A DNA stretch of 64,000 nt, taken from the NCBI RefSeq assembly GCF_030687895.1, contig NZ_CP117452.1:5447001-5511000 (forward strand). Reading direction: 5' to 3'. The DNA comes from Pseudomonas sp. FP198 (lineage in GTDB: Bacteria > Pseudomonadota > Gammaproteobacteria > Pseudomonadales > Pseudomonadaceae). Shown here piece by piece: positions 31,239 through 46,309 of the stretch. Below the pieces are notes generated by a model, which worked only from the letters and a program-made list of their open reading frames with translations, had not been told where the DNA came from and did not search any database. Position 1 is the first letter of the stretch. Each line of letters opens with the position of its first letter. Position numbers and translations under genes: made by a program.

Positions 31239-31250
31239 CGTCGCCCACAC

Positions 31251-31326
<76 letters not shown>

Positions 31327-31370
31327 CATTAGGCTCCATTGCATTCCACTGAATGCTCTGGAAGCCCCGA

Positions 31371-31396
31371 AAACCCGCCCTTTGGCGGGTTTTTTC
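31371..31396 (+). terminator. Rho-independent terminator after tRNA-Thr
   Basis: The stem AACCCGCC / GGCGGGTT has a CTTT loop and is followed by TTTTT. It lies inside the island, 45 bases after the tRNA, and so replaces the original terminator that now sits at the far end (42243). Confidence 0.85.
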
Positions 31397-31450
31397 GTTC
31401 CAGCACCCTCTGTCGGAATCCAACAAAATCCCCCTTCCCCGAGGGTATGT

Positions 31451-31491
31451 TAGGGGTACTGCGATTTCCCGGTCAGGAGCGCGTACCCCTA
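31451..31491. promoter_or_regulatory. Inverted repeat over integrase ribosome-binding site
   Basis: TAGGGGTAC (31451-31459) and GTACCCCTA (31483-31491) are perfect 9-base arms. The second includes the A of the integrase ATG, and the AGGAG ribosome-binding site lies in the loop. It could be an operator or a hairpin that limits integrase translation. Confidence 0.55.
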
Positions 31492-32819
31492 TGCCACGTC
31501 TAGCGATCCCCCTCAGCGACCTGCAATGCCGCACGGCCAAAACCCGCGAACGCGCCTACAAACTGTTCGATGGCGGCGGCATGTACCTTTTCGTCAAACC
31601 CAATGGCGTGAAGACCTGGCGCTTGAAGTACACCAAGCCCAGCGGCAAGGAAGGCACGCTCATCATCGGCAATTACCCCATCGTTACCCTTTCCGTCGCA
31701 CGACGTAAGCGAGACGAAGCCAAGGCGTTGCTGCTAGACAACCTCGACCCAATGGAAGAAAAGAAGAAGGCCAAGATCGTAGCCCAGCGGGCGGCACTGC
31801 TTTTCGAAACCGTTGCCCTGGAGTGGCACGCCGATATGTCCCGCCGCTGGACCGAAGGCCATGCAAAAACCGTAATGAGCCGACTGCGCACCCACGTCTT
31901 CCCGCTGATCGGCCAACGCCCCATCGCTGAACTCGATACCCACGACCTGCTAGAGATCACTCAGCGCATCAAGGAACGCGGCACCATGGATGTGGCGTTA
32001 AGGGTACAGAACTACTTATCCACGATCATGCGCGGGGCCAAAAGGGCTCGGCAGATCACCATGAATCCTGCACTGGATCTGGCAGGCTCGATTCACGCGC
32101 CGCGCACAGTCCATCGCCCCGCCCTATCCCTCAACCGCCTACCCGAACTGCTACAACGCATCGACAACTACAAAGGTCGCGAGCTGACGCGCCTTGCCGT
32201 CCTGTTGACGTTGCATGTATTCGTCCGCTCCAGCGAACTACGCTTCGCTCGATGGAGTGAGTTCGACCTTCAACGCGCCATGTGGGAAATCCCAGATACG
32301 CGCGCACCGATTGAAGGGGTACGCAACTCCACACGCGGGACCAAAATGAACGGCGACATTCAAATGGTTCCGCTATCGCCGCAGGTCATCGAAATACTGG
32401 AGCGCCTGCGCAGCCTCAGTCGCTTTTCAGAGTTGGTGCTACCGGGCGACCACAAGTACTGGAAGCCCATGTCCGAGAATACGGTGAACACCATGCTCCG
32501 CAACGTCGGCTATGACACCAGCAAGGACGTGTGCGGCCACGGCTTCAGGACCATGGCCTGTAGCGCCCTGCTTGAGTCCGGGTTATGGACCGACGCAGCC
32601 ATCGAAAGACAAATGAGCCACAAGGAACGCAACCGCGTGCGCGCCGCTTATATCCACAAGGCCGAATTCCTTGAACAGCGCAGGCTGATCATGGCGTGGT
32701 GGAGCAACTACATCGACGCCAACCGCCATGAGCATGTGACACCCCACGAATTCGCTCACCCAGTCGGCAACAACATCACCGCCCTACAAAATAGCCGTGG
32801 CGCATCCAAACGCGGGTAA
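31491..32819 (+). CDS. P4-type tyrosine integrase
   Basis: A 442-residue site-specific recombinase. The N-terminal DUF4102 arm-binding domain reads YKLFDGGGMYLFVKPNGVKTWRLKY and GNYPIVTLSVARRKRDEAKALL. The catalytic domain shows the first Arg in HVFVRSSELRFARW, HGFRTMACSALLESG (HxxR box) and the Tyr in RVRAAYIHKAEFLEQR. It faces away from the tRNA at its integration site, as usual for this family. AGGAG lies 12 bases before the ATG at 31491, inside an inverted repeat. It appears intact. Confidence 0.96.
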   Translation: MPRLAIPLSDLQCRTAKTRERAYKLFDGGGMYLFVKPNGVKTWRLKYTKPSGKEGTLIIGNYPIVTLSVARRKRDEAKALLLDNLDPMEEKKKAKIVAQRAALLFETVALEWHADMSRRWTEGHAKTVMSRLRTHVFPLIGQRPIAELDTHDLLEITQRIKERGTMDVALRVQNYLSTIMRGAKRARQITMNPALDLAGSIHAPRTVHRPALSLNRLPELLQRIDNYKGRELTRLAVLLTLHVFVRSSELRFARWSEFDLQRAMWEIPDTRAPIEGVRNSTRGTKMNGDIQMVPLSPQVIEILERLRSLSRFSELVLPGDHKYWKPMSENTVNTMLRNVGYDTSKDVCGHGFRTMACSALLESGLWTDAAIERQMSHKERNRVRAAYIHKAEFLEQRRLIMAWWSNYIDANRHEHVTPHEFAHPVGNNITALQNSRGASKRG

Positions 32820-32854
32820 GCCAATGAGATCACCGCAGTCCGCCCTTCCACGCG

Positions 32855-32899
32855 GGTCCATCCAAGCGGGGCTGCAAAGCCGCCCTGCTTGGATGGACC
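32855..32899. repeat. Perfect 13-base inverted repeat after integrase gene
   Basis: GGTCCATCCAAGC (32855-32867) and GCTTGGATGGACC (32887-32899) extend inward with one mismatch to a stem of about 18 pairs. There is no T run after it, so a protein-binding or nick site is as likely as a terminator. Confidence 0.6.
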
Positions 32900-33260
32900 T
32901 CACTTAAAAAATCTAAAGCCCACGCAACTGTCTGTGGAAAACCACTGATTTCCACCGGGTGGATAATTTCATCCACAGCCGCAGAACTTCCGAAAATTCG
33001 AGCCTTGACCCAAATTATCCACAGGCGTAGAAAAGATCGGGCAAGTGCTGTCGTTGACAGCAACCCAAGTAGCCAGAACCTTTAAGGCTACGCCACACCG
33101 TGGTGGTTCTCCCAAAGTGCGACTAGCGTCCGGTGGCTCGCACGGTCACTCACCGAGTGATGGATGCCTACTTCAGATCATTGCCATTGCGGCAAATACA
33201 TCCCCCTACCTAGCTGCCCTGCAGCAACCTATCCGCTTGGCCATTTCACTGCGCCAATCT

Positions 33261-33295
33261 GCGCCCGTCTCTTTCTTCCGGAAAGAGACGGGCGC
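33261..33295. repeat. Perfect 15-base hairpin
   Basis: GCGCCCGTCTCTTTC and GAAAGAGACGGGCGC flank a 5-base TTCCG loop. It is very stable in RNA or single-stranded DNA. The role is unknown. Confidence 0.65.
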
Positions 33296-33723
33296 TCCTA
33301 CCACTGCTGCAGCCCACCTCGTACAAGGCATTGCGGCATTTCCCCTCGTGACAATCGGCGTGACAAACATCGAAGTCACCAGCAACAGCGATGCAGATGA
33401 TGGTGCCGCAGTCCAAGGAATGGACTGCACCTGAGTGACAGTCAGGCACGCCCCGGTCATCGCCTCACTGCCTTCACCCGACTCAGGATCTCGCGGCGCT
33501 GGTCTCGTCAGCCAGTGCGGCCTCCACCCGCCCACGTCTTTGGAAGTGTTCAGGAGGCCAGATCATGAGATGCCCAAGCTCCCGGTCGTAAGGAGTCGTC
33601 AGTTCCGCGTTAGTGGACAACCCTCACAGGTCGCAGGGGCCTTGATCCCTGATAACACTCAGCATTTCTTGGCGGGATGACGTGGGGAAAGTTTCAAAGG
33701 TTTGGCTTCAGAGGAGTTCGATC

Positions 33724-34704
33724 GTGGCGCTGGTAGGTAAACGTGGCGGGCGCAATTTTGGCTATGGCCGGCAACTGAGCTATGCCGGACCACAGGCATT
33801 GAAAGATCTGTTTGGCAGCGGTCATTACGGGACGGTCAAGGCGCACAGTGATCGCTGGCAGGCGTTTGTACGCTGGTGTCGGTCGGAGGATGGACCTGGG
33901 TTTAACGATGCGCGGCAGATTGATCGGCAGACCTTGCTGGACTACGCCGGGCATCTGCGCCAACAAGTTGAACAAGGTGAGCTGGCCATCGCCACTGCGC
34001 AAAACCGGTTATCCAGTGTGAATCGGACCATGGCCGCGCTTCGCGGTGATCCGTATGTGAAAGTGCCGAGCCCGAGTAAGGCGTTGGGAATGCGGCGCAC
34101 CACTGTTCGTCGTTCAGTGCCGCAAGGCCAAGACCGCGAACAGGTGAAGCGGATCGTAGAGGTACTTTGCGAAAACCAGCAGCCGCGCGTCGCGGCCATC
34201 GCTCAGTTAGCGCGAGCCACCGGTATGCGCTTGCGCGAGGCGATTTTGGCCAACCTTCCCCGTCTAAAACGTGAAGCCAAGCAATTCGGAAAGATCAACA
34301 TCCAGGACGGCACCAAAGGTGGCCGTTCAGGCGAGTCAGCACCTCGTTGGATTACGGTAGATGATCATATTCGTGACGCACTGAGGTTTGCCGAAAAGAT
34401 CTTGCCCGACGATAGCCGCAACCTGCTTGCACAGAACGAACGCTACCTCGATTTCTTGCAGGGAATCGTCCGCCCCGCACGGGACATCCTCCATCAGCAC
34501 AACTTCAAAGGCTTCCACGAATTGCGGGCAGCCTACGCGTGCGAACGCTATGAGCAAATCACTCGACATCTTGCGCCCATCTACGGCGGCAACTGCTACC
34601 AGCTCGACCGACGCCTTGATCAGGAGGCCCGAGCGCAAGTCAGCTATGAGCTGGGGCACGGCCGTATCGACGTGGTTTCGGCTTACATTGGTGGTAGAGC
34701 ATGA
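33724..34704 (+). CDS. Second tyrosine recombinase (integrase-domain protein)
   Basis: This 326-residue protein has a core-binding helical domain (LLDYAGHLRQQVEQGELAIATAQNRLSSVNRTM) and a tyrosine-recombinase catalytic domain: first Arg in ARATGMRLREAILANL, HxxR box in FHELRAAYACERYE, then LGHGRIDVVSAYIGG with the likely nucleophile Tyr. GTG at 33724 is chosen because AGAGGAG stands 8 bases before it; a GTG at 33682 has none. It overlaps a small gene downstream (ATGA). It may move a cargo block or be a stabiliser. Confidence 0.85.
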   Translation: MALVGKRGGRNFGYGRQLSYAGPQALKDLFGSGHYGTVKAHSDRWQAFVRWCRSEDGPGFNDARQIDRQTLLDYAGHLRQQVEQGELAIATAQNRLSSVNRTMAALRGDPYVKVPSPSKALGMRRTTVRRSVPQGQDREQVKRIVEVLCENQQPRVAAIAQLARATGMRLREAILANLPRLKREAKQFGKINIQDGTKGGRSGESAPRWITVDDHIRDALRFAEKILPDDSRNLLAQNERYLDFLQGIVRPARDILHQHNFKGFHELRAAYACERYEQITRHLAPIYGGNCYQLDRRLDQEARAQVSYELGHGRIDVVSAYIGGRA

Positions 34705-34976
34705 ACATGGCATTCGATATGGAGCTGTTCCTGTCAGGCGTCCTGACCGGGTCGCATACCACACGCCAACGCCACCTTCGTCAGGCAAAGACTATCCAAG
34801 CAGCAATCGCTGATCGCTGGCAACGCGACAATCCATGGACTTGGCAGAGAAAACACCTTGCGTGGTTTTTGAATCGCCACCTAAACCAGCACACTGAATC
34901 GACGCGCTATTACTATTTGCTGACCATGCAATTACTCACTCATAGCTTAGGAAAAACCTGGCAGTTCAACCGCTAG
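34701..34976 (+). CDS. Small hypothetical protein coupled to recombinase
   Basis: A 91-residue basic, aromatic-rich protein (AIADRWQRDNPWTWQRKHLAWFLNRHL, YYYLLTMQLLTHSL). Its start overlaps the recombinase stop (ATGA), so the two are translationally coupled. It is not recognised. It might be an accessory factor for recombination; this rests on position only. Confidence 0.6.
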   Translation: MNMAFDMELFLSGVLTGSHTTRQRHLRQAKTIQAAIADRWQRDNPWTWQRKHLAWFLNRHLNQHTESTRYYYLLTMQLLTHSLGKTWQFNR

Positions 34977-35506
34977 ACGAAGGTCAGAAAACGGTCGGTT
35001 CTGTTGAAAACAGTCGGCCATGGTTTCCACGGCAGAAAAGTACGCGCTTGAGATTGAATCTTTTCTTTTAGCAGAGGATTCCGGGCTCGGATTTCGCGTA
35101 GCTGCGCGCAAAAAAGGCGTTTTCAGCAGTCAGTACGCGAGTAGCTTAGAAGGACCGACTTTTTCAACAGAATCGGCCATACGGACGTTCGCCTTTAACC
35201 ACTCCTACTGTCCCTGCGTATCTTTCGATCAAGGCAAAAGTGTGGAGTGGTAGGTCCGTTCGCGACCTTTGTGAGTATTTGGCCGTATGCCAAGTACTCC
35301 CTGAACGTCCACTCGCTGGGATGACCAACAGTCTTGCTTCGTAGATAGGTAAGGCAGCGCCTGTCTAAAGACTCAGCGCGTCAATCATCCTACTGCAAAC
35401 TGAACCGACTGCTTGCCGGATTGTAAACAGCTCCCGGCTCGCGCGGGAATATAAACCAGCGGGGCGGCGTTGTGTGTCGCCGGAGGTAAGTGAAGGGCCG
35501 ATAGAA
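34977..35506. other. Non-coding spacer between recombinase block and nuclease gene
   Basis: Apart from the MITE-like element at 34990-35181, I see no gene in these 530 bases. The TGTCCCTGCGTATC and AACGTCCACTCG text near 35210-35320 resembles the scar sequences found between other island cassettes. Confidence 0.35.
34990..35181. repeat. MITE-like element with imperfect terminal inverted repeats
   Basis: The left end has GGTCGGTTCTGTTGAAAACA followed by GTCGGCC; the right end, reversed, has GGCCGATTCTGTTGAAAAAG followed by TCGGTC. They share TTCTGTTGAAAA within about 25 bases. The 190 bases between carry no transposase. TGTTGAAAAAG ends are usual for some IS families, so this could be an IS relic. 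A short frame at 35020-35253 crosses the end and is not called as a gene. Confidence 0.45.
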
Positions 35507-36241
35507 CTAGAATTTCTGGATATCAGTGAGGGTTGCAGCAAACGCCTGGAGAATCTCCACCTTGCTTCGGCCGCCGCCGGTGAGGTGGATGAACTCATCA
35601 AAATCGATGTTCACGAGCCTGCCCGTTCTCGGATTCATTAAGACGCACGATCTCCACTCATAATTGCCCGTCTCTACAGCCGCCGCATAGCTCAACAGCC
35701 AGTACATTGCGACTTGCCTATAATCGGCAGCGGAGAAATTACCGGCTATGCATTTCACTTCGATTAGCGACGACCCGGCAAAAAAATCGCCGGTTCCTGA
35801 GGCGATCCAGCGAAAGCCGGGGATCACCGGCGCCGCGCCATAAGCCGAGTTACAATCAGTAGCTACCTGCTTGACCATAGTCACCAGGTTGTCCGCTACG
35901 CGCAGGGCGATACGTTGATCATTCTCAGAAATTTCCGATGGGCTGATTGCATCGAAGAACCCGCTTTGCCTGTCTGTTGCGGTAGCAACGCATTCTCCCC
36001 ACGTTGGATTGTTACCAAGGACGAGCTGCTCACCTACGGCAAAGGCCAGTTCGAATAGCAGAGATTTTTGTAGTTCACTTGCCTGAATCGCTTCTGCCGG
36101 CACGACGATCACCGCACAATCGATAGCCAGTTTGTTATAAAAGGACACGATGCCAGGCGTTAGCCCTGGGAAAATAGCATTCAATATGCCGGGAATATTT
36201 CGAGCAATCGTTCTAGGGTCACGGCCAGCTTTAGTTATCAT
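35507..36241 (-). CDS. RecB/Cas4-like PD-(D/E)XK nuclease, RT partner
   Basis: A 244-residue protein not recognised as a named family, but with a clear nuclease core: Asp152 in SGTGDFF, Glu161 and Lys163 in SLIEVKC, and Gln176-x3-Tyr180 in YRQVAMYWLLSY. The D...ExK...QxxxY order is that of RecB/Cas4-type PD-(D/E)XK nucleases. The first 130 residues are helical and unassigned. The ATG at 36241 has GGAG 9 bases upstream; its start overlaps the reverse transcriptase 3' end by 11 bases. Tight coupling suggests one RT plus nuclease system. Confidence 0.72.
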   Translation of the reverse strand: MITKAGRDPRTIARNIPGILNAIFPGLTPGIVSFYNKLAIDCAVIVVPAEAIQASELQKSLLFELAFAVGEQLVLGNNPTWGECVATATDRQSGFFDAISPSEISENDQRIALRVADNLVTMVKQVATDCNSAYGAAPVIPGFRWIASGTGDFFAGSSLIEVKCIAGNFSAADYRQVAMYWLLSYAAAVETGNYEWRSCVLMNPRTGRLVNIDFDEFIHLTGGGRSKVEILQAFAATLTDIQKF

Positions 36242-37857
36242 CACACCAGCTCCGATAGAGACCGGCGAAGTTCGGGCGATCCTGACGCTCTATTCCTAGC
36301 CTCCATGACTGCTCCAAGCTTGGCCCAATCTGACGGCGTAGACCATCCCCTTGGTCTCCAAAGGACTCGGCTGCGAGCCATGTCAATCGCTGACATTCAG
36401 CGTTGATTTCACTCCATCGGCTTGAGATAGAGCTGAAACCGGACCTGTCTTTCCATAGACGCCAGCAGTCTATGCACGCCCTTTTGACTGTGTGGGACGA
36501 GTTGTATTTATAAGTACTTTGGACAAAAGCAGCTCTAGCTGGCGTTTGCGCAAACTTCAAGACTCGAAGGTAGTGCAGCAAGCTGGCTTCAGCTTGCAAC
36601 AAATGAGCAGAGTGGACAGCCACTCTATCTATCACAGCATCCAGATCGGAGTGGATTTCTTCATATCCCGCGCCCGCTCTGAGATTGGCCACACCTCGCA
36701 TTATGGTTGACCACGAAGCGCGAAAGGCATGCAAGTTATTCGGCTCCAGTAGCGTCGACGCAAGTTGCAGGGCTACGATTGGGCTATGGAACTTCAGGGT
36801 CCTACCTATCTGGGTTATCAAGAAATTATCCGGGAGCGACTTTTGCAATTCGTTGCCGAGCAATTTCTGGACGTCTAGATTTTCGACAGTCATTTTCAGC
36901 GACTCATAATCCCCCTCGGGGTTATCAGAGTAAGGATCATAATGTAGGTCGATATGTCTCAAGATTCCGGCGTTGGTATCGTCACCACCAAGCTGAGTGG
37001 TAACGTCCTCATAATGTTTAGCCGTCATCATTATAGTTTTCGATTTATTCAGCGTGATCCCATAGTCCGCGAGAGCGTGTGATAAAAATGCTAGCCCTGC
37101 GTAAGCGGCGGAATTCGAATCTGCAATGAGCACATAGTCGTCAACATATCGGTACCAACGTAAGCCGTCATGCGTCATTCGATGGTCGACAGAGTTCAAA
37201 AACAGCTCCGCCAGAATCCGCGAGCACTGTCCGCCGACAGGTAATCCGAAGGAACGCCCCGCTGAAAAATTTTGATAACAGTGCGGTGATTTGGTTACCT
37301 ACCCTGCCATCCGGGAACAGGTCATCGATGAGGTTTTCTAAGTAATGATGCGAGATGTGTTCGTAAAAGCTTGAAATGTCGGTTTGGACGACTACTGTCC
37401 CCTTGGGAGCGAGCGCAGCCTCTTTCGACGTAGCCTCTCTGAACACTCTCCAGGATGAGCCCCGGTCGAATAGCTCAGACCCACCCTCCGCCTGGAACCT
37501 ATATGAGAAGGTTCGCTGATCACGTATTGGTTCTAACTGATCGGCAATAGCTACGCCGAGTCCGTTGAAATAAATGCTCCAAAACGGGTGGAGTTTTGTA
37601 GTCACCCTGAATCCTGATGCACCGGTTGCGACCAAAAGGCGCTCGCTGAATACGGTTAATGCTGCGATTTTGTTCTTGCTGTTGGACACACTGTCTTTGC
37701 GAAGCTCCTCCGAAAAACCGAAAGCGACCTCTGCTAGCTCATTTTGCTTAGCTGAAACGAAATTCGTGTCGACATCGAAAGGTAGCGTGTCGTTGTCACC
37801 GTGCGCTCCGATATCAGCTGCCGCACGCAGAAAATGCTCCAGTGTTACTTCAGACAT
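36231..37857 (-). pseudogene. UG/Abi-type reverse transcriptase, frameshifted
   Basis: Reading from ATG 37857 gives RT landmarks: TFSYRF, then motif A with Asp160 in VVVQTDISSFYEHI. At a GGGG run (37257-37260 on the plus strand as CCCC) the frame breaks after residue 200. With one G removed the protein goes on as GRSFGLPVGGQCSRILAELF (motif B), then motif C RYVDDYVLIA (Asp239 and Asp240), a long helical C-terminal half, and ends at 36231, about 541 residues in all. The FSYRF and helical tail fit defence RTs of the UG/Abi class, not group II introns or retrons. AAAGGA precedes the start. The break may be a true mutation, a read error or programmed slippage. Confidence 0.82.
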
Positions 37858-38140
37858 GTCCTTTCCCCGGCCGACGACCTCTGTTAGCCGGGCTCAGCGC
37901 ACCGACAATCCCTCACCCAGCGATCATCTCAGTACGCCCGCTGCATGTCGATAGACGGCCAAAAGCGGACCGCCCTGCAGCTCCAGATTTCTCCATTGTT
38001 GTAATCGCACCCGGGTTAAGCAGCAGTAAATGCGCAGCCCATCGATATCGATTTTTTCTGCATATGTAGGCCTGGAGGTCTTGGAGTGACGCTATAGAAG
38101 GATGAGGGCATAATGCCACTTCACAGCAATAGGAGTGTTT

Positions 38141-38956
38141 ATGAACAAGGATACGGTCGAAGGTGCGATGAGCCGCTTGGCTAATACGATGCGGATCTAT
38201 ATAGAAACCTTCCTGCGATATAAGGGACTGGTAGCTATCGATAAAGAAGAGGCTATCAATAATATGGATAGAGCCTGGGAGGCAAAGCTAGAGGCCTTCC
38301 ATACGCTATATGATGTCACCCAGGGTGAGATCGATTATTTTGATCGTCCGGATACGGCTTTTCTGATATTTTTACGCAACGCGTTGCATCACCGTAATCA
38401 CTCCCTCTTCCAAAGTTTAAATTCAACTTTGTGGTTGTGTGATGAGCCAGAGCGACTGGCTGGAGCCGCATATCTGCTCGCAAATCACCCTCCTAAAGGA
38501 GGTGGTCCATCACGTATGCATCATTTCATCAAGCTCGAAGATATCTACTCTCGACTTGATCCGCGCCGGAATGCTCCCGAGCTTGATAGAATGAAGAAAG
38601 TTCAAAGCCAATTCCGTTTTATCGAGGAGGGTCTGTCGTTTGAGAAGATATGGGCACAAGCAGACTCTGAGCGTTACCCAAATCACCAAGTCTACTTGGA
38701 TCTGATGCCAGTTTTTATTTCCGCAGTAAGTAGCACGCTAATACGATTGAAAGCGCTCGGTTATTCTTTTAAAGGATATGACGCAGGAACGTATGAAAGC
38801 TGCTTCACAGAGGAGCTTGGGACAGATTTACAAAATCTTAAATTTAGGGGACTCCGGATGAATGATTTGCAATACTTAATGGGTCCGTCGCATACGATTA
38901 ATGAAGCAGCAGTTCCCTACAATGATAAAGGTGAGATGACTTATGCTGAATTCTGA
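38141..38956 (+). CDS. HEPN-like protein divergent from the reverse transcriptase
   Basis: The 271-residue protein is helical and AT-rich in its gene. It carries Arg79 to His84 in FLRNALHHRNHSLF, a good match to the RNxxxH (R-x4-6-H) motif of HEPN RNases. Flanks show a helical array (RIYIETFLRYKGLVAIDKEEAINN). The rest is not recognised. ATG 38141 has AGGAG 5 bases upstream. It is transcribed away from the RT gene, with a shared 283-base promoter region. A toxin-like RNase role is inferred only from the motif and the neighbours. Confidence 0.65.
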   Translation: MNKDTVEGAMSRLANTMRIYIETFLRYKGLVAIDKEEAINNMDRAWEAKLEAFHTLYDVTQGEIDYFDRPDTAFLIFLRNALHHRNHSLFQSLNSTLWLCDEPERLAGAAYLLANHPPKGGGPSRMHHFIKLEDIYSRLDPRRNAPELDRMKKVQSQFRFIEEGLSFEKIWAQADSERYPNHQVYLDLMPVFISAVSSTLIRLKALGYSFKGYDAGTYESCFTEELGTDLQNLKFRGLRMNDLQYLMGPSHTINEAAVPYNDKGEMTYAEF

Positions 38957-39501
38957 GCGGTAGAAGGTCAATGACATCGGCCTCAGCCTAGGGTCTAGGT
39001 ATTGATGACTGGGGCAAGCATGGCCTTATTCATCTGCTTTGGGTCGATTTCTGCCTGTCGCAGCTGACAGTAAACTGCCATATCCGGGGCCTTACCTCAA
39101 GGCTGCGTCATGGCGATAGCTAGATCGCTTCGTGGATAATTCCTTACGTTGCGCTGGCTGCAAGAAACCGAGATCAGCGCACCTTACACCTGCAGTTTCT
39201 AACACCATTTGACTGGCGGCTCTAATTCAACGAAGTATCGCCCGCCCGCTCTAAAGCTGCCAAGATGAAGTCGCTTTTCGCTGCGCAAGCAATCTGAGCC
39301 AATGGTCACCTTCACCATCGCGTCCAACACAGGAGGGTGATCCACCAATGGAAAATGTTTCTTCAAATAATAATTGCCCTAGAGCCCGCATGCGGTGCGT
39401 CCACCACTTGACAACTTAGAAAATCTATAGCGCCAACAGATATTTACCGGTAGAATTCACACGCCATGCACAACATGGAAGATATAATTATGGAGTTTTC
39501 G
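38957..39501. other. Intergenic spacer with scar sequence before SIR2 gene
   Basis: No gene is visible. A text near 39033-39080 (CTGCTTTGGGTCGATTTCTG followed by CCTGTCGCAGCTGACAG) resembles sequence at 40701-40806 and 41922-41973. A TTGACA lies at 39410-39420 in the probable promoter of the SIR2 gene, without a clear -10 at the proper distance. Confidence 0.4.
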
Positions 39502-40626
39502 ATGGCTCAGAATAAAACATTAGAAAAAAAGAAGACAGAAAAAGAAAAATGGCGAGCTGTCTACTGCGACTCGGTAAAATTTAAAGGGTACCTTGCCCCC
39601 AAGTCATGGACTCTTTGTGTAGGAGCTGGAATATCCAAGGGAATCGTCCCTGACTGGCACAACCTTGCACACCATGTTGTAAATAGTGCATATAATTTAA
39701 GCCTTAATGACGATGAATTTCAAAAGATCGTTTCGGAGACCGGCTGGTCATTAGACTCATGGATTCAAGCTGCCGCGAACAAATTTCAGGCTGACGGCAG
39801 AGAATCTGCTGACTTTAAAAGCCTCATCGAGTCACAAATTTATTCTATAATTCGTTCGAAAGCCACCGGCATGGGGTTGAGTCGTTATTTAATTCAAGTT
39901 TTAAGTGATCCACATAGCGCTCCCCGTGATCGTGTCATTGAGATCTGTGATTTCTTGGAAAACACTTTCTCTGGCAGCTCGTTATTTCAGACTGGAAGAG
40001 CGCTGATCCAGTGTGAAAAAAGCGGCACGGCACCTAAAGCTGTTTTGACATTTAATGCAGATACTTTGTTAGAAACATATATAAATCTCAATCTTCGCAG
40101 GACGCACTACCTTGGCCCTGGCCCATATGGGCATCCAGAATTTCCCTTTGTACAAGTCACGAGACCTGTCATAAAGTCAGGAAATAACATTCCAATCATT
40201 CACTGCCATGGCGCTATTGCTCCCAAAGACACAGGGATGCACCGCCACAGAGACTCAAGAGATCGGCTTATCTTTCTAGAGCAAGAATATCTTGATATGG
40301 CTAGTAGCCGAGCATCTTGGGGAGAGTCGCAATTTCTTTTTCACGCCCACTCCACAAAGATGGTCTTCCTTGGGTTATCGATGGCGGACTCCAATATACG
40401 AAAGTGGATGAATGGTATCAATATTGAAAAATCTCGTGACTTGCAGCTTTTTGGCTACGAAGAAATACCGAATCCTCACCACGTTTGGATTAAGCCCGAG
40501 CCGGCAGCCCCTCAGATGAAACAGGTCTATTTGCTATCACTTCTTCACTTAGGTGTGAGGCCAGGATGGATAAAATCTTGGCGTGACGTTGAAACCGCAT
40601 TGCTCAACCTTTCGAGTGCGATTTAA
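39502..40626 (+). CDS. SIR2-domain protein, probable antiviral NADase
   Basis: A 374-residue SIR2-fold protein. NAD-binding motifs are visible: Gly-Ala-Gly-Ile-Ser at 41-45 (LCVGAGISKGIVP), TFNAD at 183-187, the catalytic His236 in IIHCHGAI, and LGLSMADSN at 290-298. No zinc-binding Cys pairs are present, unlike deacetylase sirtuins; stand-alone SIR2 proteins of this kind act in phage defence by destroying NAD. ATG 39502 has GGAG 6 bases upstream; ATGs at 39466 and 39490 are alternatives. No partner gene directly adjoins it. Confidence 0.82.
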   Translation: MAQNKTLEKKKTEKEKWRAVYCDSVKFKGYLAPKSWTLCVGAGISKGIVPDWHNLAHHVVNSAYNLSLNDDEFQKIVSETGWSLDSWIQAAANKFQADGRESADFKSLIESQIYSIIRSKATGMGLSRYLIQVLSDPHSAPRDRVIEICDFLENTFSGSSLFQTGRALIQCEKSGTAPKAVLTFNADTLLETYINLNLRRTHYLGPGPYGHPEFPFVQVTRPVIKSGNNIPIIHCHGAIAPKDTGMHRHRDSRDRLIFLEQEYLDMASSRASWGESQFLFHAHSTKMVFLGLSMADSNIRKWMNGINIEKSRDLQLFGYEEIPNPHHVWIKPEPAAPQMKQVYLLSLLHLGVRPGWIKSWRDVETALLNLSSAI

Positions 40627-40853
40627 ATAGTTTTACATGAGACAGGTACCGCTTCTTCAGACTCAAATCGAGATACTTCGATTGTACGAATGGCAGATTT
40701 AGCCACCAGCAGCTATGAGCGAAGGGCTGCTTCGGGTCGGAAAGCGGATGTTCCCGACCAACTGCTTTCGGCCACTCAGGTTCACGGAGCTAGCTGTAAA
40801 CTGCCTCTCATGGTATCTACTTGCCATCGCCGAAATGAACAGGACGGTGTTGC

Positions 40854-41849
40854 ATGTTTGATAATTTGCAGAAAGAGCTTCGCCGACTAGCTGCGACTCA
40901 GCAGGTGTCTGTGCCCATTGAAAGTGATGCGGAGGGTTACATCGACAAGGAATGTCCCGCTGAGGCATGCCTGTTCCAATTCAAGATCTACGGTGATGAT
41001 TGGACAAATATCGTGCGGGACGATGAGGTTTTTTGCCCATCCTGCCGGCACGCTGCTCCAGCCAAATCATGGTTCACAACCGCACAGATCGAAGGGGCGA
41101 AGGAGTACGCTTTGGGCACTGTGATCAACGGTCTAAACGGCGCAATGCGAGCAGACGCCCAAGCCTCTAAACGACGGCAAAAACCGGGCGCTTTCCTCAG
41201 CATTACTTTAGACGTCAAAGGCGGAAAGGATGCTGTTCTTTTGCCGATAGCCGCAGCGGAACCGATGCGCCTACGTACAAGGTGCGATGATTGCGCGTGC
41301 AGATATTCCTACGTTGGCGCGGCCTACTTCTGTCCGAGTTGCGGGAAAAACTCGGCGAGCCACACCTTTCTGCAAACGTTAGCGACTATCCGAACGTCGG
41401 CTGCACTAGGTGGAACGCTGCGCGGAGTGCTCGAGCCCGACGAGGCCGAGGTGATGACACGAACTCTTCTGGAGAAGGCCATTTTAGATACAGTTACTTC
41501 TTTCCAGCGGCTTGCTGAGCAGCTATATGAAGCTCGAACCGGCAAAGAGCCGCGGCGTAATGCCTTCCAGAATCTTGATGCAGGCTCTGCATTGTGGGAA
41601 ACAGAACTCGGAGTTTCATACGCTCAGCTACTGGAGGCCGCTGCTATGACACAACTGCGTGTCTACTATCAGCAACGCCATCTTCTGGCACACCAGCAGG
41701 GTATCGTTGATAACGACTATGTTACACGTAGTGGCGATACAACCTACGAGGTCGGACAACGGCTACTCATCAAAGAAAGTGCTGCGCTTAAGTTTGCAGA
41801 CCTGGTAGACCGGCTTGGAACCGCGCTAATGGCCCGTTGCTCGCCCTGA
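40854..41849 (+). CDS. Zinc-ribbon protein with C-terminal HEPN-like motif
   Basis: A 331-residue protein with two cysteine sets: Cys34, Cys39, Cys61, Cys64 and Cys144, Cys147, Cys160, Cys163, suggesting two zinc ribbons. The C-terminal helical part has Arg275 to His280 in QQRHLLAHQQGIVDNDYV, a common form of the R-x4-H HEPN motif. ATG 40854 follows AGGA. It is the last cargo gene before attR. Nucleic-acid sensing by the ribbons and RNA cleavage by the HEPN part is a plausible but untested reading. Confidence 0.7.
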   Translation: MFDNLQKELRRLAATQQVSVPIESDAEGYIDKECPAEACLFQFKIYGDDWTNIVRDDEVFCPSCRHAAPAKSWFTTAQIEGAKEYALGTVINGLNGAMRADAQASKRRQKPGAFLSITLDVKGGKDAVLLPIAAAEPMRLRTRCDDCACRYSYVGAAYFCPSCGKNSASHTFLQTLATIRTSAALGGTLRGVLEPDEAEVMTRTLLEKAILDTVTSFQRLAEQLYEARTGKEPRRNAFQNLDAGSALWETELGVSYAQLLEAAAMTQLRVYYQQRHLLAHQQGIVDNDYVTRSGDTTYEVGQRLLIKESAALKFADLVDRLGTALMARCSP

Positions 41850-42219
41850 GCTGAGTGTGGCCCCGCCGACTCCCTGCCAACGGTCGTGAGTTGTTAAGCG
41901 CTCTAGTTTCGTAGACATCTTTGAGTGTCCGCCTCTGGCCGTCTGCTGCCTGTCGCCACGGCAGCTTTGGCGGATTCCTTCCTATTCTCTACGAAAGAGA
42001 TGATCGACAACGTTCAAATTCAGGGGGGGTTACCATTCGTATGCGGCTCTGAATTACTTACAGGCCGACAATGTGCTCACATCGAAAAAATCCCGAGTTC
42101 GATTCCATCGAGCGCCATAACCAGCTGATTTATTTATAGTTACTAGTTGGGGTACGCCGAATTTTCCAGCGAACTCCAGACGCCCGAAAAACCTAGCCCC
42201 GCAGAAACATACCGCTCGT
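41850..42219. other. Non-coding end of island with tRNA-like fragment
   Basis: No gene is seen. A scar sequence lies at 41922-41973. At 42085-42118 there is CCCGAGTTCGATTCC followed by ATCGAGCGCCA, which looks like the T arm and 3' end of a tRNA without the rest. It could be an older att site or chance. Confidence 0.35.
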
Positions 42220-42234
42220 CTGGTGCCGGCACCA
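42220..42234 (+). other. attR: duplicated tRNA-Thr end
   Basis: An exact copy of CTGGTGCCGGCACCA from the tRNA-Thr 3' end. It is followed 8 bases later by a strong terminator that most likely once followed the tRNA directly. Nothing upstream of it folds as a tRNA, which marks it as the displaced site. Confidence 0.82.
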
Positions 42235-42242
42235 TACAAAAC

Positions 42243-42273
42243 AAAGCCCTCGCAGAAATGCGAGGGCTTTGTT
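42243..42273 (+). terminator. Displaced terminator of tRNA-Thr
   Basis: A 12-base perfect stem AAAGCCCTCGCA / TGCGAGGGCTTT has a GAAA loop and is followed by GTTGTTT. It lies right behind attR, so before insertion it would have ended the tRNA-Thr transcript. Confidence 0.8.
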
Positions 42274-42501
42274 GTTTCTGGAAGGCTTAAACCTTTTAAA
42301 GCTGGATAAGGGCCCGCACGACCTTACCGGCATCGAGAGACCAAGCCTTGCCCACTCGCCTACTCGGTGCAATTTCACGTCAGCCCAACGTTGACGGCCT
42401 CTTACACCTACCTATAATGCACTCCAACACACCCGCCAAGCCTAGGTTGACCCAGTCAGCAAGCTCAAATCGTGCGGTTTTTTTTGCCTGGAAAAAACTA
42501 C

Positions 42502-42597
42502 ATGAGGCCCTACGACAAACCGACCCTCAGCGTAGAACAGCAATTGGAACTGCTAAAGCAACGGCTTACACACCGCCAACGTGTATCCCGGTCATGA
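42502..42597 (+). pseudogene. Abi family (Abi_2) protein, N-terminal remnant
   Basis: The 31-codon frame reads MRPYDKPTLSVEQQLELL then KQRL, the usual beginning of Abi_2 (AbiD/AbiF) abortive-infection proteins. It breaks after that into THRQRVSRS and a stop, and no further Abi_2 sequence is seen. It lies just outside attR, which hints that this spot has taken up defence genes before. Confidence 0.6.
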
Positions 42598-43038
42598 CAG
42601 CCTCGATGACGAGCGAGTTTTTGGCATCTTAAACCGCCTGGCGCTGGCTTGAATTGATAACCCGTCGCGAGAAGGTTCACGATTTTTTGTGCTCAGGCTC
42701 ATCCGCTTTGCTGCGTTTGCTGGAGACACACTAAGCATCACTCGCCACCATCGCGCCACGATTGCGTGCTTTCCAATCACCCAATACTCTCTGATCGTCG
42801 CTGCCAATTCAGCGACCGGGCGTAGGAAACCCGAAATAATCAAGGCGCATCAGCTGCGCCCCGCTTACTATTGCAGGCGCTTTTTTTGTGTCTGCGATAC
42901 GCGTTATGGCGGCTGTGCGCGGGACACCTTCGGGTGTGCCGGGTGCCTTGATTCCCGGTTTTCCTACCCCGTGCACGGCCGCCACCCCATCCCGTAGGAA
43001 AGGACGGTAGGCGGCTCTCATAGTCAAGGAGCCAGACC
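42598..43038. other. Long leader of the DUF3077 gene, possibly structured RNA
   Basis: No gene is called here. From about 42820 the text is rich in pairing segments, such as GCGCATCAGCTGCGCC, GGGACACCTTCGGGTGTGCC and CCCGTAGGAAAGGACGGTAG, and runs to the AAGGAG ribosome-binding site at 43026. In Pseudomonas such a leader is often seen before DUF3077 genes. An antisense frame (42809-43045) spans it and is not supported. Confidence 0.45.
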
Positions 43039-43317
43039 ATGCCAAACCCGCGAGACCTCAAAACCCCAGGCCTAACCCCCTTCTCCTACCACTCCGACCG
43101 CCCCCTGTTCCGCGTCAACAGCGGCATCCCCATCGGCGAAGCCCTCTCTCACGCCTCCGATCTTCTCCACATCGCCATGCGTCTGGCCGATGATGCGGCG
43201 ATGGTTCGGGGTACGGATCGTTATGCCTGGGCGTCGTGTTATTTGCAGGAGATGAGCAAAGCCGTCATCGATGACGTGGTGAAGGTGCTGGAGGCGCCGG
43301 GGAGTAATCCTGCTTAG
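43039..43317 (+). CDS. DUF3077 domain protein
   Basis: A 92-residue protein with the family pattern PLFRVNSGIPIGEALSHASDLLHIAMRLADDAAM and a C-terminal SCYLQEMSKAVIDDVVKVL. These small helical proteins occur in many copies in Pseudomonas; the function is unknown. AAGGAG precedes the ATG. The long leader ahead of it is described separately. Confidence 0.82.
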   Translation: MPNPRDLKTPGLTPFSYHSDRPLFRVNSGIPIGEALSHASDLLHIAMRLADDAAMVRGTDRYAWASCYLQEMSKAVIDDVVKVLEAPGSNPA

Positions 43318-43381
43318 GGCGCAGTGACGCGATGCTGCTCCTTGTGCGGGGGCAGCATTGGGTTTCGTCGGTAGCAAAGAG

Positions 43382-43422
43382 GGGCCGCTTCGCAGCCCAG
43401 CGGGAGCAAGCTCCCTCGCCAC
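43382..43422. repeat. Half REP repeat, GAGGGAGCTTGCTCCC class
   Basis: Only the right arm is present: GGGGCCGCTTCGCAGCCCAG and then CGGGAGCAAGCTCCCTCGCC. The matching left arm, seen at 4085 and 62643, is missing. Confidence 0.7.
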
Positions 43423-43549
43423 GGGTGAATGGAGCATTCATCTATTTATTTTCGCCGCCGATAGCCTCAATTAAGAGCATGCCTTTCCAAGGCTCGGCGA
43501 GCGCTCATCTACACTTGCCCGAAATCCCCCGCTCCAGGAGCAATAAGCG

Positions 43550-45157
43550 ATGAAAATCCGCACCAAGGTTGTAGGTTCGGGGTTGGTCAGCCTGTTTTTT
43601 GCGCTGTTGCTGGGCGGTATCGGGCTGTGGGGTTACCACGCCATGACCGAGGCCCTGGCGCAGAACGAGACCAGTATCTCGGCGATGCGCAAGCACATGG
43701 AGGCGGACATGATGCACGACGCCATTCGTGGCGATGTGTTGGCTGCCTTGCTGGTTGCACCGGGGGATGCCGAGGGTGCGAAGGAGGTGACCGAGGCGTT
43801 CGATGAGCATTCGCAGCGGATGCGCAAGGTTATCGCGGAGAACGCCGAGGCTCAGTTGCCGGGTACGATTTCACAAACCATTGCCGAGCTGAAGCCTCAG
43901 GCCGAGGCCTATATCGCCTCGGCGAAGCAAGTGATTGGCAAGGCGTTGGGTGGGGCTCAGGATGGCCGGGCGTTGCGTACCGAGTTCGATAAAGCGTTTT
44001 CGGCGCTGGAAGAGCGTAACGAAGCGGTCAGCGAATTGATCGAAAGCCAGGCGCAAGTTTCTCGCGAGCATCAGGACCACAGCATCCATACCTCGGAGCG
44101 CTGGTTGATCATCACGTTGCTGGCCACCTGCGTGGCGCTTGCATTGCTGTCGTGGAGCCTGCTCAAGGCAGTGCTCACGCCGCTGAACAAGATCATCATC
44201 AATACCCAGGCAATTTCCCAAGGCGATTTGCAGCGCTCGATGGGCCCTCATGGCGATGATGAATTGGGTCAGTTGCAAGCCGTGATCGAACAGATGCAGG
44301 CCAACTTGCGGCAGATGATCGCGACGATCCGTGGCCAGAGCGATGAGCTGCACGGCACGTCACGCAATCTGGGCGATACGGCGCGGCAGATTGTGTCCAG
44401 CGCCGACCAGCAGGCCCAGAGCGCTACCAGCATGGCGGCGAGTATGGAGCAGATGATGGCGAACATCAGCCAGATCCATCAGCACGCCGACAGCGCGCGG
44501 ACGATTTCGGCGCAATCCGAACAACTGGCGAGCAGCGGTGGGCAGGTGATCCTGGGGGTGGTGGAAGGCATGAACCGGATTGCCGAGGTGGTCAACCAAT
44601 CGTCCAGCAAGATCACCGCCCTGGACGCGTCCTCCGAGGATATCCATTCGATCATCCAGGTGATCAAGAGCATTGCCGAACAGACCAATCTGCTGGCCCT
44701 TAACGCCGCTATCGAAGCTGCTCGAGCCGGCGAGGCGGGCCGCGGTTTTGCGGTGGTGGCCGATGAGGTGCGCAACCTGGCAGCGCGCACCACTCAGTCC
44801 ACCCAGGAAATCACCGCGATGATCGAGCGCATCCAGTCCAGCGCCCGGGATGCGGTGGCGAACATGCAGGCCTGCGTCAGTCGCGTGGACGAAGGCGTCA
44901 ACCTGGCCCAGCAGGCCGGCGTCTCGATCAGCGAGATCCGCACGGGCGCACGGCATGCTGCCGAAGTGGTGGAGGAAATCTCCCAGACCATCGCCGAACA
45001 ATCAAAAGCCAGTGATGAAATGGCTCAGCGGGTAGAAGCAATAGCCGAGCAGTCTCGGGAAAACACCCGCTCGATTCACGATCTGACAAAAACGGCTGAC
45101 CATCTGAACGATGCCGCGGGCTCGATGCAGGCTTCGGTGCAGCAGTTCAAGATTTGA
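43550..45157 (+). CDS. Methyl-accepting chemotaxis protein
   Basis: A 535-residue chemoreceptor. It has an N-terminal transmembrane helix (about residues 9-30), a four-helix periplasmic ligand domain, a second helix at about 186-205 ([18 protein letters not shown]), a HAMP domain ([22 protein letters not shown]) and a signalling domain with the hairpin tip [20 protein letters not shown] and [16 protein letters not shown]. The ligand is unknown. It stands alone, with no chemotaxis genes next to it. Confidence 0.96.
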
Positions 45158-45221
45158 TCAACCACGTCCACATGTAATTGGAGTAAAGGAGCTTGCCCGC
45201 TGGCGCACGGCAGCTCCTTGT

Positions 45222-45899
45222 TCACACCTGGCTGACCTCAAACACAAACGAAATCTCCCGTTTCTGCGCACTCCACACGTAACGAATGTGCTTGCCCTGC
45301 ACCGGAATCGACACCGCCGGCGGACGAAACGCGGCCACGCATTCATGGCCGGGCAAGCGGACGCTGTTGTACAGCAATCCCCACGACAAGGTTTCACGCA
45401 GCTCCCGGGCAAATACCTGGGACGGGCCGTAGGCGTCAGGGTCCGGGTTATGCAGATGGGGATAATCGTGGCGGATGTCGTGCAGGGGTTTGACGATCTT
45501 GTTGACGTAGGTGCGCATGGTCAACTCCAGGTCCGGCTCGTTGGTCGCGCCAAGGAAGCGTGCCTGGTGGTAGCAGGTCTCGGCAATCGCGGCTTCCTGG
45601 CTGCTGGCAGCGTAGTAGACGCCGAACGTGCCGTCGCTGAAGCGGCTGCGCTTGCCGATGTGGGTGAATGCCGCCATCACCGGCGACGAGCCCGGGCCGG
45701 AAACCCGGTCTTCGGGGCGTACCCGGGACAGCACGCCGGCCTCTTCCATGAGCCGGTCATTGGTCAGCGCTTCGAGGGCGTAGGCGGTGGGCAAGTCTTC
45801 GGGATCAAGCACGTCTTCGAACAGCGTGATCGGCGGAAAGCTGCTGTTGACGATCCGATAGGCCCGTTTCCATTGCGGGTCCGCCAGTGGTGGCATCAT
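45222..45899 (-). CDS. RES-domain toxin (NAD+ phosphorylase)
   Basis: A 225-residue RES-domain protein. Known RES toxins break down NAD+. The sequence has KRAYRIVNSSFPPI with the conserved Arg and FSDGTFGVYYAASSQEAAIAET, which carries the RES core, and ends in a strand-rich part (IRYVWSAQKREISFVFEV). It is the downstream gene of a toxin-antitoxin pair; its ATG overlaps the antitoxin stop (TGATG). Confidence 0.9.
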   Translation of the reverse strand: MMPPLADPQWKRAYRIVNSSFPPITLFEDVLDPEDLPTAYALEALTNDRLMEEAGVLSRVRPEDRVSGPGSSPVMAAFTHIGKRSRFSDGTFGVYYAASSQEAAIAETCYHQARFLGATNEPDLELTMRTYVNKIVKPLHDIRHDYPHLHNPDPDAYGPSQVFARELRETLSWGLLYNSVRLPGHECVAAFRPPAVSIPVQGKHIRYVWSAQKREISFVFEVSQV

Positions 45900-46309
45900 C
45901 AGCCGCGCACTCCGTCGAGGTATCGCCGCACATCGGCGATGTCCACCACTCGCCCGTTCAGCATGTAGGAAAGCGCCGACTGGCCGTTGAATGGCGCCGC
46001 GTTATTGGGACTGCTGACCCATTGATACACGCGGTCCCGGCTGTTGCTGAAGATGATGCTCAGGGCTTTATGAATACCCATAAGGTAGGAGATTCGCTCG
46101 AGGGTATCGCGCGGCAGCCTTACGTTGTCGGGTAATTGTTTGTACTTGTAGAAAGTCGTGTTCCCTACCTTGCCCAACAGCGTGCGCTGCTGCTCGACGC
46201 TGCAGCCCCACAACTCCATGAGATTGAAGAAGAACTTCAACGCGATTCGACCCGCGTCCGGGGAATCCAATTGTTGCTGTGCGTTGAGCGTGATGGAGGA
46301 AGTCGCCAT
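45899..46309 (-). CDS. Xre/MbcA/ParS-type antitoxin (DUF2384)
   Basis: A 136-residue antitoxin. An N-terminal helix-turn-helix-like region (WGCSVEQQRTLLGKVGNTTFYKYK) is followed by the DUF2384 part with ERISYLMGIHKALSIIF and NAAPFNGQSALSYMLNGRVVDIADVRRYLDGVRG, typical of RES antitoxins. AGGAG lies 11 bases before the ATG. It is cotranscribed with the RES gene and probably represses the pair. Confidence 0.9.
   Translation of the reverse strand: MATSSITLNAQQQLDSPDAGRIALKFFFNLMELWGCSVEQQRTLLGKVGNTTFYKYKQLPDNVRLPRDTLERISYLMGIHKALSIIFSNSRDRVYQWVSSPNNAAPFNGQSALSYMLNGRVVDIADVRRYLDGVRG

Follow-up and report, generated by a model that had tools for sequence, protein, structure and literature searches.

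Two overlapping genes on the reverse strand of the genome of Pseudomonas sp. FP198, one for a reverse transcriptase (RT) and one for a nuclease, raise the question whether they form a novel system of phage defence or belong to a known one. They occupy positions 37857-35507 of a 64,000-nucleotide stretch of contig NZ_CP117452.1 (assembly GCF_030687895.1), which was analysed as a whole, is called the window here and provides all coordinates. The initial annotation, made from the sequence alone, had proposed an undescribed type of defence-associated reverse transcriptase (DRT) system. This claim of novelty had to be given up, because the RT falls in the known type DRT8 with its partner already described: the nuclease belongs to the PADLOC family RTasPDDEXK, and a PD-(D/E)XK domain is on record for DRT8 in a passage of PMC12596737. 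The RT-nuclease pair is already known as a DRT type, to which the window locus adds just one damaged copy. Judged from its sequence, this locus is almost certainly a frame-broken DRT8 module, in which a class-1-type RT and a RecB-type PD-(D/E)XK nuclease are encoded by overlapping genes.

DRT8, which we take to be identical with UG7, is said to have been phage-tested in the founding survey of Mestre et al. 2022. Anti-phage activity is reported for it at the family level in sections of reviews, and its mechanism is given as yet to be established in parts of 2026 reviews, including PMC13213688. Our literature search, for which the subscription literature was mostly out of reach, found no paper on the mechanism of DRT8. 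In the P. syringae complex, DRT8 is described as strongly horizontally transferred and to 14% prophage-encoded (excerpt of PMC13182921).

Genes and family assignment

The RT is encoded by two open reading frames (ORFs) on the reverse strand. The N-terminal piece (37857-37168) contains the motif FSYRF and, at 37380-37363, DISSFY, and the C-terminal piece (37199-36231) comprises YVDD at 37148-37137, a linker with DPYSD and the helical tail. In an alignment with an intact homologue from Paraburkholderia, the pieces correspond to residues 1-200 and 196-541, respectively. The nuclease gene is a complete open frame on the same strand (36244-35507, with ATG at 36241) for a protein of 244-245 amino acids (aa). 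Its ATG and the RT stop lie within an overlap of 11 bases (36231-36241), through which the two genes are probably translationally coupled. Coordinates, motifs, residue numbers and this overlap had all been given correctly in the initial annotation.

Drt8 was the best PADLOC family for both RT pieces, with E-values of 1.5e-53 for the N-terminal and 5.1e-68 for the C-terminal part, and the nuclease matched RTasPDDEXK with an E-value of 2.6e-67 and 224.8 bits. These family matches are far above chance level. The intact RT of Pseudomonas sp. Irchel s3b2 (locus L006) scored 485 bits to Drt8 versus 104 bits to the next family, which amounts to a margin of about 380 bits, and both PADLOC models carry the DRT label. 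Pfam assigned the generic RT domain, with 62.9 bits for L006 and a score just below the cut-off for the C-terminal piece of the window, while all NCBIfam matches of the window locus were far below the cut-offs. The window nuclease had no match in Pfam or NCBIfam. The passage on DRT8 in PMC12596737 is silent on whether the PD-(D/E)XK domain is fused or encoded by a separate gene. A table in the available part of the review PMC10952713 pairs Cap17 SLOG/PNP domains with DRT8; therefore, DRT8 as used elsewhere may hold further partners besides PD-(D/E)XK.

Pairing of RT and nuclease across genomes

As the initial annotation had proposed, neighbours were counted, and the pairing proved stable. When the species genomes of GTDB were scanned with an alignment of five nucleases, 68 loci were obtained, by their titles mostly from alpha-, beta- and gammaproteobacteria, with one metagenome-assembled genome titled Verrucomicrobia. 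An RT lies directly upstream of the nuclease in 67 of them; the exception (L054) has just 523 bp before the nuclease and, with the E-value limit raised to 10, still yielded no convincing RT match. The RT is full-length and open in 57 of the 68 loci, cut by contig ends in six (L014, L028, L034, L039, L042 and L061, of which L061 has an in-frame stop as well), broken or interrupted in four (L046, L053, L058 and L066) and missing in one. In L053, about 2.4 kb of other DNA interrupts the RT (L053:1420-3885). In-frame stops within the nuclease occur in L019, L060 and L066, with L046 not covered. Overlaps were counted for the 68 loci with both coordinates among the 73 loci L002-L074, with start codons chosen by script. 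The two genes overlap in 66 of these 68 and by exactly 11 bases in 37; the value of 134 for L045 is an artefact of frame extension past a stop.

Among plasmids, the nuclease and the C-terminal RT piece each matched the same four records. In the plasmid locus L003, a truncated RT adjoins an IS3 transposase gene, and on a Sphingobium plasmid the direct neighbour of the DRT8 pair is a gene of 3.7 kb with the annotation "reverse transcriptase like protein" (L004:6828-10520). The phage collection contained no relative of either protein at the limits used. IMG/VR yielded one contig, the same from either gene, and none when an earlier search used just the window nuclease. Among 57 genomes from its genus and order, the own one included, the nuclease was found in its own genome only.

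Starting from the RT makes the test of pairing less one-sided than starting from the nuclease. The Drt8 family, searched against sets of 369, 398 and 398 genomes, gave 14 foreign matches (E <1e-40), the L006 RT added three more from 385 genomes (E <1e-30), and a further RT search in 340 genomes returned the own genome only. The nuclease adjoins the RT in four of these 17 loci (L099, L100, L108 and L109), L100 being the same locus as L008 of the nuclease scan, from Pseudomonas umsongensis DSM 16611; in the remaining 13, no nuclease was present in the flanks of the match, which covered about 1.5 kb to either side and less in L076. An adjoining nuclease was likewise absent from 17 weaker UG-RT loci that served as a control. 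In L076 (L076:556-3036), the Drt8-profile RT has 826 aa with a C-terminal extension of about 300 aa. This candidate RT fusion was rejected; its C-terminal 306 residues showed a chance-level PADLOC match (E 0.15) and no convincing family.

In the phylogenetic tree, 63 nuclease-paired RTs were separated from 11 solo RTs with 100/100 support by a very long branch, and the tree program warned that long branches meet at this split. Two loci (L108:719-3087 and L109:1453-3788) form a second paired lineage, in which FADD replaces YVDD in the RT and which fell between the paired and solo groups in a quick tree. Their RTs reach 514-537 bits to Drt8 and their nucleases 180-220 bits to RTasPDDEXK. Since Drt8-profile RTs occur solo as well as in two paired lineages, the nuclease, on the loci compared here, goes with only a part of what PADLOC calls Drt8; both paired lineages are already recognized by the known models.

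Module boundaries and frame break

DNA homology to four Pseudomonas copies (L006, L007, L008 and L099) begins at a sharp edge at 37957-37966 and continues to 35169-35196, except for L099, where it stops at 35484. Outside the genes, all four compared copies have in common an upstream leader/promoter of about 100 bp (37858-37957, reverse strand) and 23 bp past the nuclease stop (35484-35506, reverse strand). The approximately 300 bp after the nuclease, shared by the other three relatives with 67-85% identity to the window, were rejected as a required part of the module because L099 lacks them. As delimited by this comparison, the mobile unit is a leader of about 100 bp, two genes and little else, and such compactness argues against a large non-coding RNA, while leaving room for a short one. 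RNAalifold detected no base pair with changes on both sides in the conserved leader of about 100 bp, single-strand folds of ten leaders were unremarkable (z-scores of -1.3 to 1.8), and Rfam gave no match beside the genes between 33.2 and 42.1 kb.

The RT frame of the window copy is lost near 37,260, between DISSFY and YVDD. The break hits motif 4 (L006 residues 201-209), a stretch in which R, S, F, G, P, G and G are identical in all 49 related RTs. Because it lies upstream of the catalytic YVDD, the window copy is probably inactive. Programmed ribosomal frameshifting would turn the break from damage into a normal way of making the RT, and both halves of the gene are indeed otherwise open. The C-terminal part, as well as the nuclease, also shows purifying selection, which is evidence on the history of the genes and not on the present state of this copy. 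In the closest copies (L006, L007, L008 and L099), by contrast, the RT is open in one single frame, and the nucleases of the open Pseudomonas copies are 91-95% identical to that of the window. Broken RTs elsewhere (L046, L058 and L066, and L053 by its insert) are broken at different places. Frameshifting thus seems extremely improbable, and the break is better explained by a recent mutation or by an error in sequencing. The idea of a novel defence system of RT and nuclease, separate from the DRT types named so far, fares little better and is very unlikely. It could draw on the low identity (24-33%) between the paired RT clade and the solo RTs that the Drt8 model of PADLOC also detects, on the deep split between the two groups, by which the paired clade could be a subtype of its own, and on the wording for DRT8 in the passage of PMC12596737, which does not state that the PD-(D/E)XK domain is a separate gene. 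Against this stand the margin of Drt8 over the next family, the recognition of the second paired lineage by both models and the DRT label that these models share.

Predicted folds and proposed mechanism

The assignment to the UG/Abi RTs with a long helical tail, made in the initial annotation, agrees with the Drt8 profile and with the predicted structure. The L006 model consists of an RT domain and an alpha-helical tail, to which DRT6, DRT4 and AbiK align in full length over at least 440 residues. Two conserved tyrosines, Y310 (in 21 of 23) and Y318 in L006 numbering, are located in a predicted disordered linker between the RT and the helices; in the window, their codons are found at 36932-36930 and 36908-36906 (reverse strand) in the linker of the C-terminal piece. 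In AbiA, DNA is primed on the protein itself, with tyrosines in the RT-helix linker (PMC11077055). Class 1 relatives make untemplated DNA, which is protein-primed in some of them (PMC13174585, in the part available; PMC11077055).

In the nuclease, the residues D152 (codon 35788-35786), E161 (35761-35759), K163 (35755-35753), Q176 (35716-35714) and Y180 (35704-35702, all on the reverse strand) do not vary in any of the 56 aligned sequences and follow the order D, E-x-K, Q-x3-Y on a predicted alpha-beta core. Structure comparison placed the predicted fold closest to AdnA, AddA, MGME1 and RecE, which are end-processing nucleases of recombination and mitochondrial DNA upkeep; searching the sequences of solved structures with a profile of the nuclease brought no useful match. 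The RecB-type PD-(D/E)XK nuclease was thus recognized properly, and the label "Cas4-like" holds for the fold class and fails for the iron-sulfur (Fe-S) cysteines. In Cas4, an Fe-S cluster is bound by four conserved cysteines. No cysteine is invariant in the aligned nucleases (the best columns have 46, 32, 13 and 13 of 56), and by this alignment the four-cysteine set is absent from the family.

What, then, could the nuclease do beside such an RT? As the overall best explanation, held with moderate confidence, DRT8 would combine a self-primed, untemplated RT with a nuclease that acts as a trimmer. In intact copies, the RT would need no template to make single-stranded DNA (ssDNA) and would use a tyrosine of its own linker (Y310 and/or Y318) as the primer, like AbiA. 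The nuclease would be an exonuclease that continually trims this ssDNA from the free 3' end and leaves the healthy cell unharmed. Infection would shield the DNA end or disable the nuclease, and ssDNA would accumulate until growth stops (abortive infection). In DRT4, ssDNA becomes toxic once the phage protein ORF55 shields its 3' end from exonuclease (section of PMC13213688), and DRT8 would follow this logic with the exonuclease built in. On these analogies, protein-primed, untemplated synthesis by the DRT8 RT is moderately likely, and the role of the nuclease as a trimmer or brake on the RT product is put forward tentatively; that it processes this product at all, as the initial annotation had suggested, is plausible.

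The nuclease may instead be the effector, with RT-made DNA or an RT complex activating the PD-(D/E)XK protein on infection to degrade phage or host DNA, which appears possible but doubtful. An excerpt of PMC10952713 names several other defence proteins with PD(D/E)XK domains. An effector would also be in line with the invariant catalytic residues and with the nearly constant position beside the RT (67/68). However, the closest predicted folds are those of end-processing nucleases, and the many solo Drt8-profile RTs suggest that the RT product alone can suffice. Returning to the trimmer, an extended version, which we regard as unlikely, would give DRT8 its own safety catch: the nuclease would degrade protein-linked ssDNA and be the sensor as well, and the toxic DNA would be set free by any phage that shields DNA ends or blocks exonucleases of the RecB type. 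If so, anti-RecBCD phage proteins would trigger defence. For experiments, the comparison offers a two-gene unit that is conserved and sharply delimited, homologues with open frames, five nuclease residues without variation and two tyrosines as candidate priming sites. Tests on DRT8 would reveal whether DRTs have evolved an inbuilt control over the toxic DNA that they make.

Genomic island

The island setting noted in the initial annotation is borne out by the surrounding features. Its left part (31251-34704) starts with a tRNA-Thr and contains an integrase (31353-32819), presumably P4-type, a radC RNA motif (33033-33167, 80 bits) and a second recombinase (33682-34704, Integrase_1). Further candidate defence genes are an unnamed ORF of 273 aa (38135-38956), a SIR2_2-domain protein (39466-40626) and a protein that matches PDC-M14A of PADLOC and, weakly, Zn ribbons (40854-41849). 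To the right of the DRT8 pair lies a C4 antisense RNA (83 bits) with its a1/b1 target motif (42784-42989), an arrangement typical of P1/P4-like immunity. No direct repeat of the tRNA end was found within 31240-46000 and a pattern search for attachment sites gave matches little above chance; the right end of the island was not placed.

Comparison with known systems

With DRT8, the window pair shares the RT family, the PD-(D/E)XK partner, the gene order and the overlap; it differs in its frame-broken RT, and the nuclease-paired clade is 24-33% identical to solo RTs of the same profile. DRT4 and DRT6 have the same full-length fold of RT plus helical tail, whereas they are listed as single-gene systems with no co-encoded nuclease named in the section of PMC13213688 concerned. 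AbiA, AbiK and Abi-P2 resemble the window-type RT in the RT fold, and AbiA also in the tyrosines of the RT-helix linker, but their identity to it is 10-18%, and AbiA has a HEPN part where the window pair has a PD-(D/E)XK protein instead. The RecB-type nucleases AdnA, AddA, MGME1, RecE and Cas4 are like the window nuclease in predicted fold and in the order D, E-x-K, Q-x3-Y; in contrast to them, it is a stand-alone protein of 244 aa without a helicase and without invariant Fe-S cysteines.
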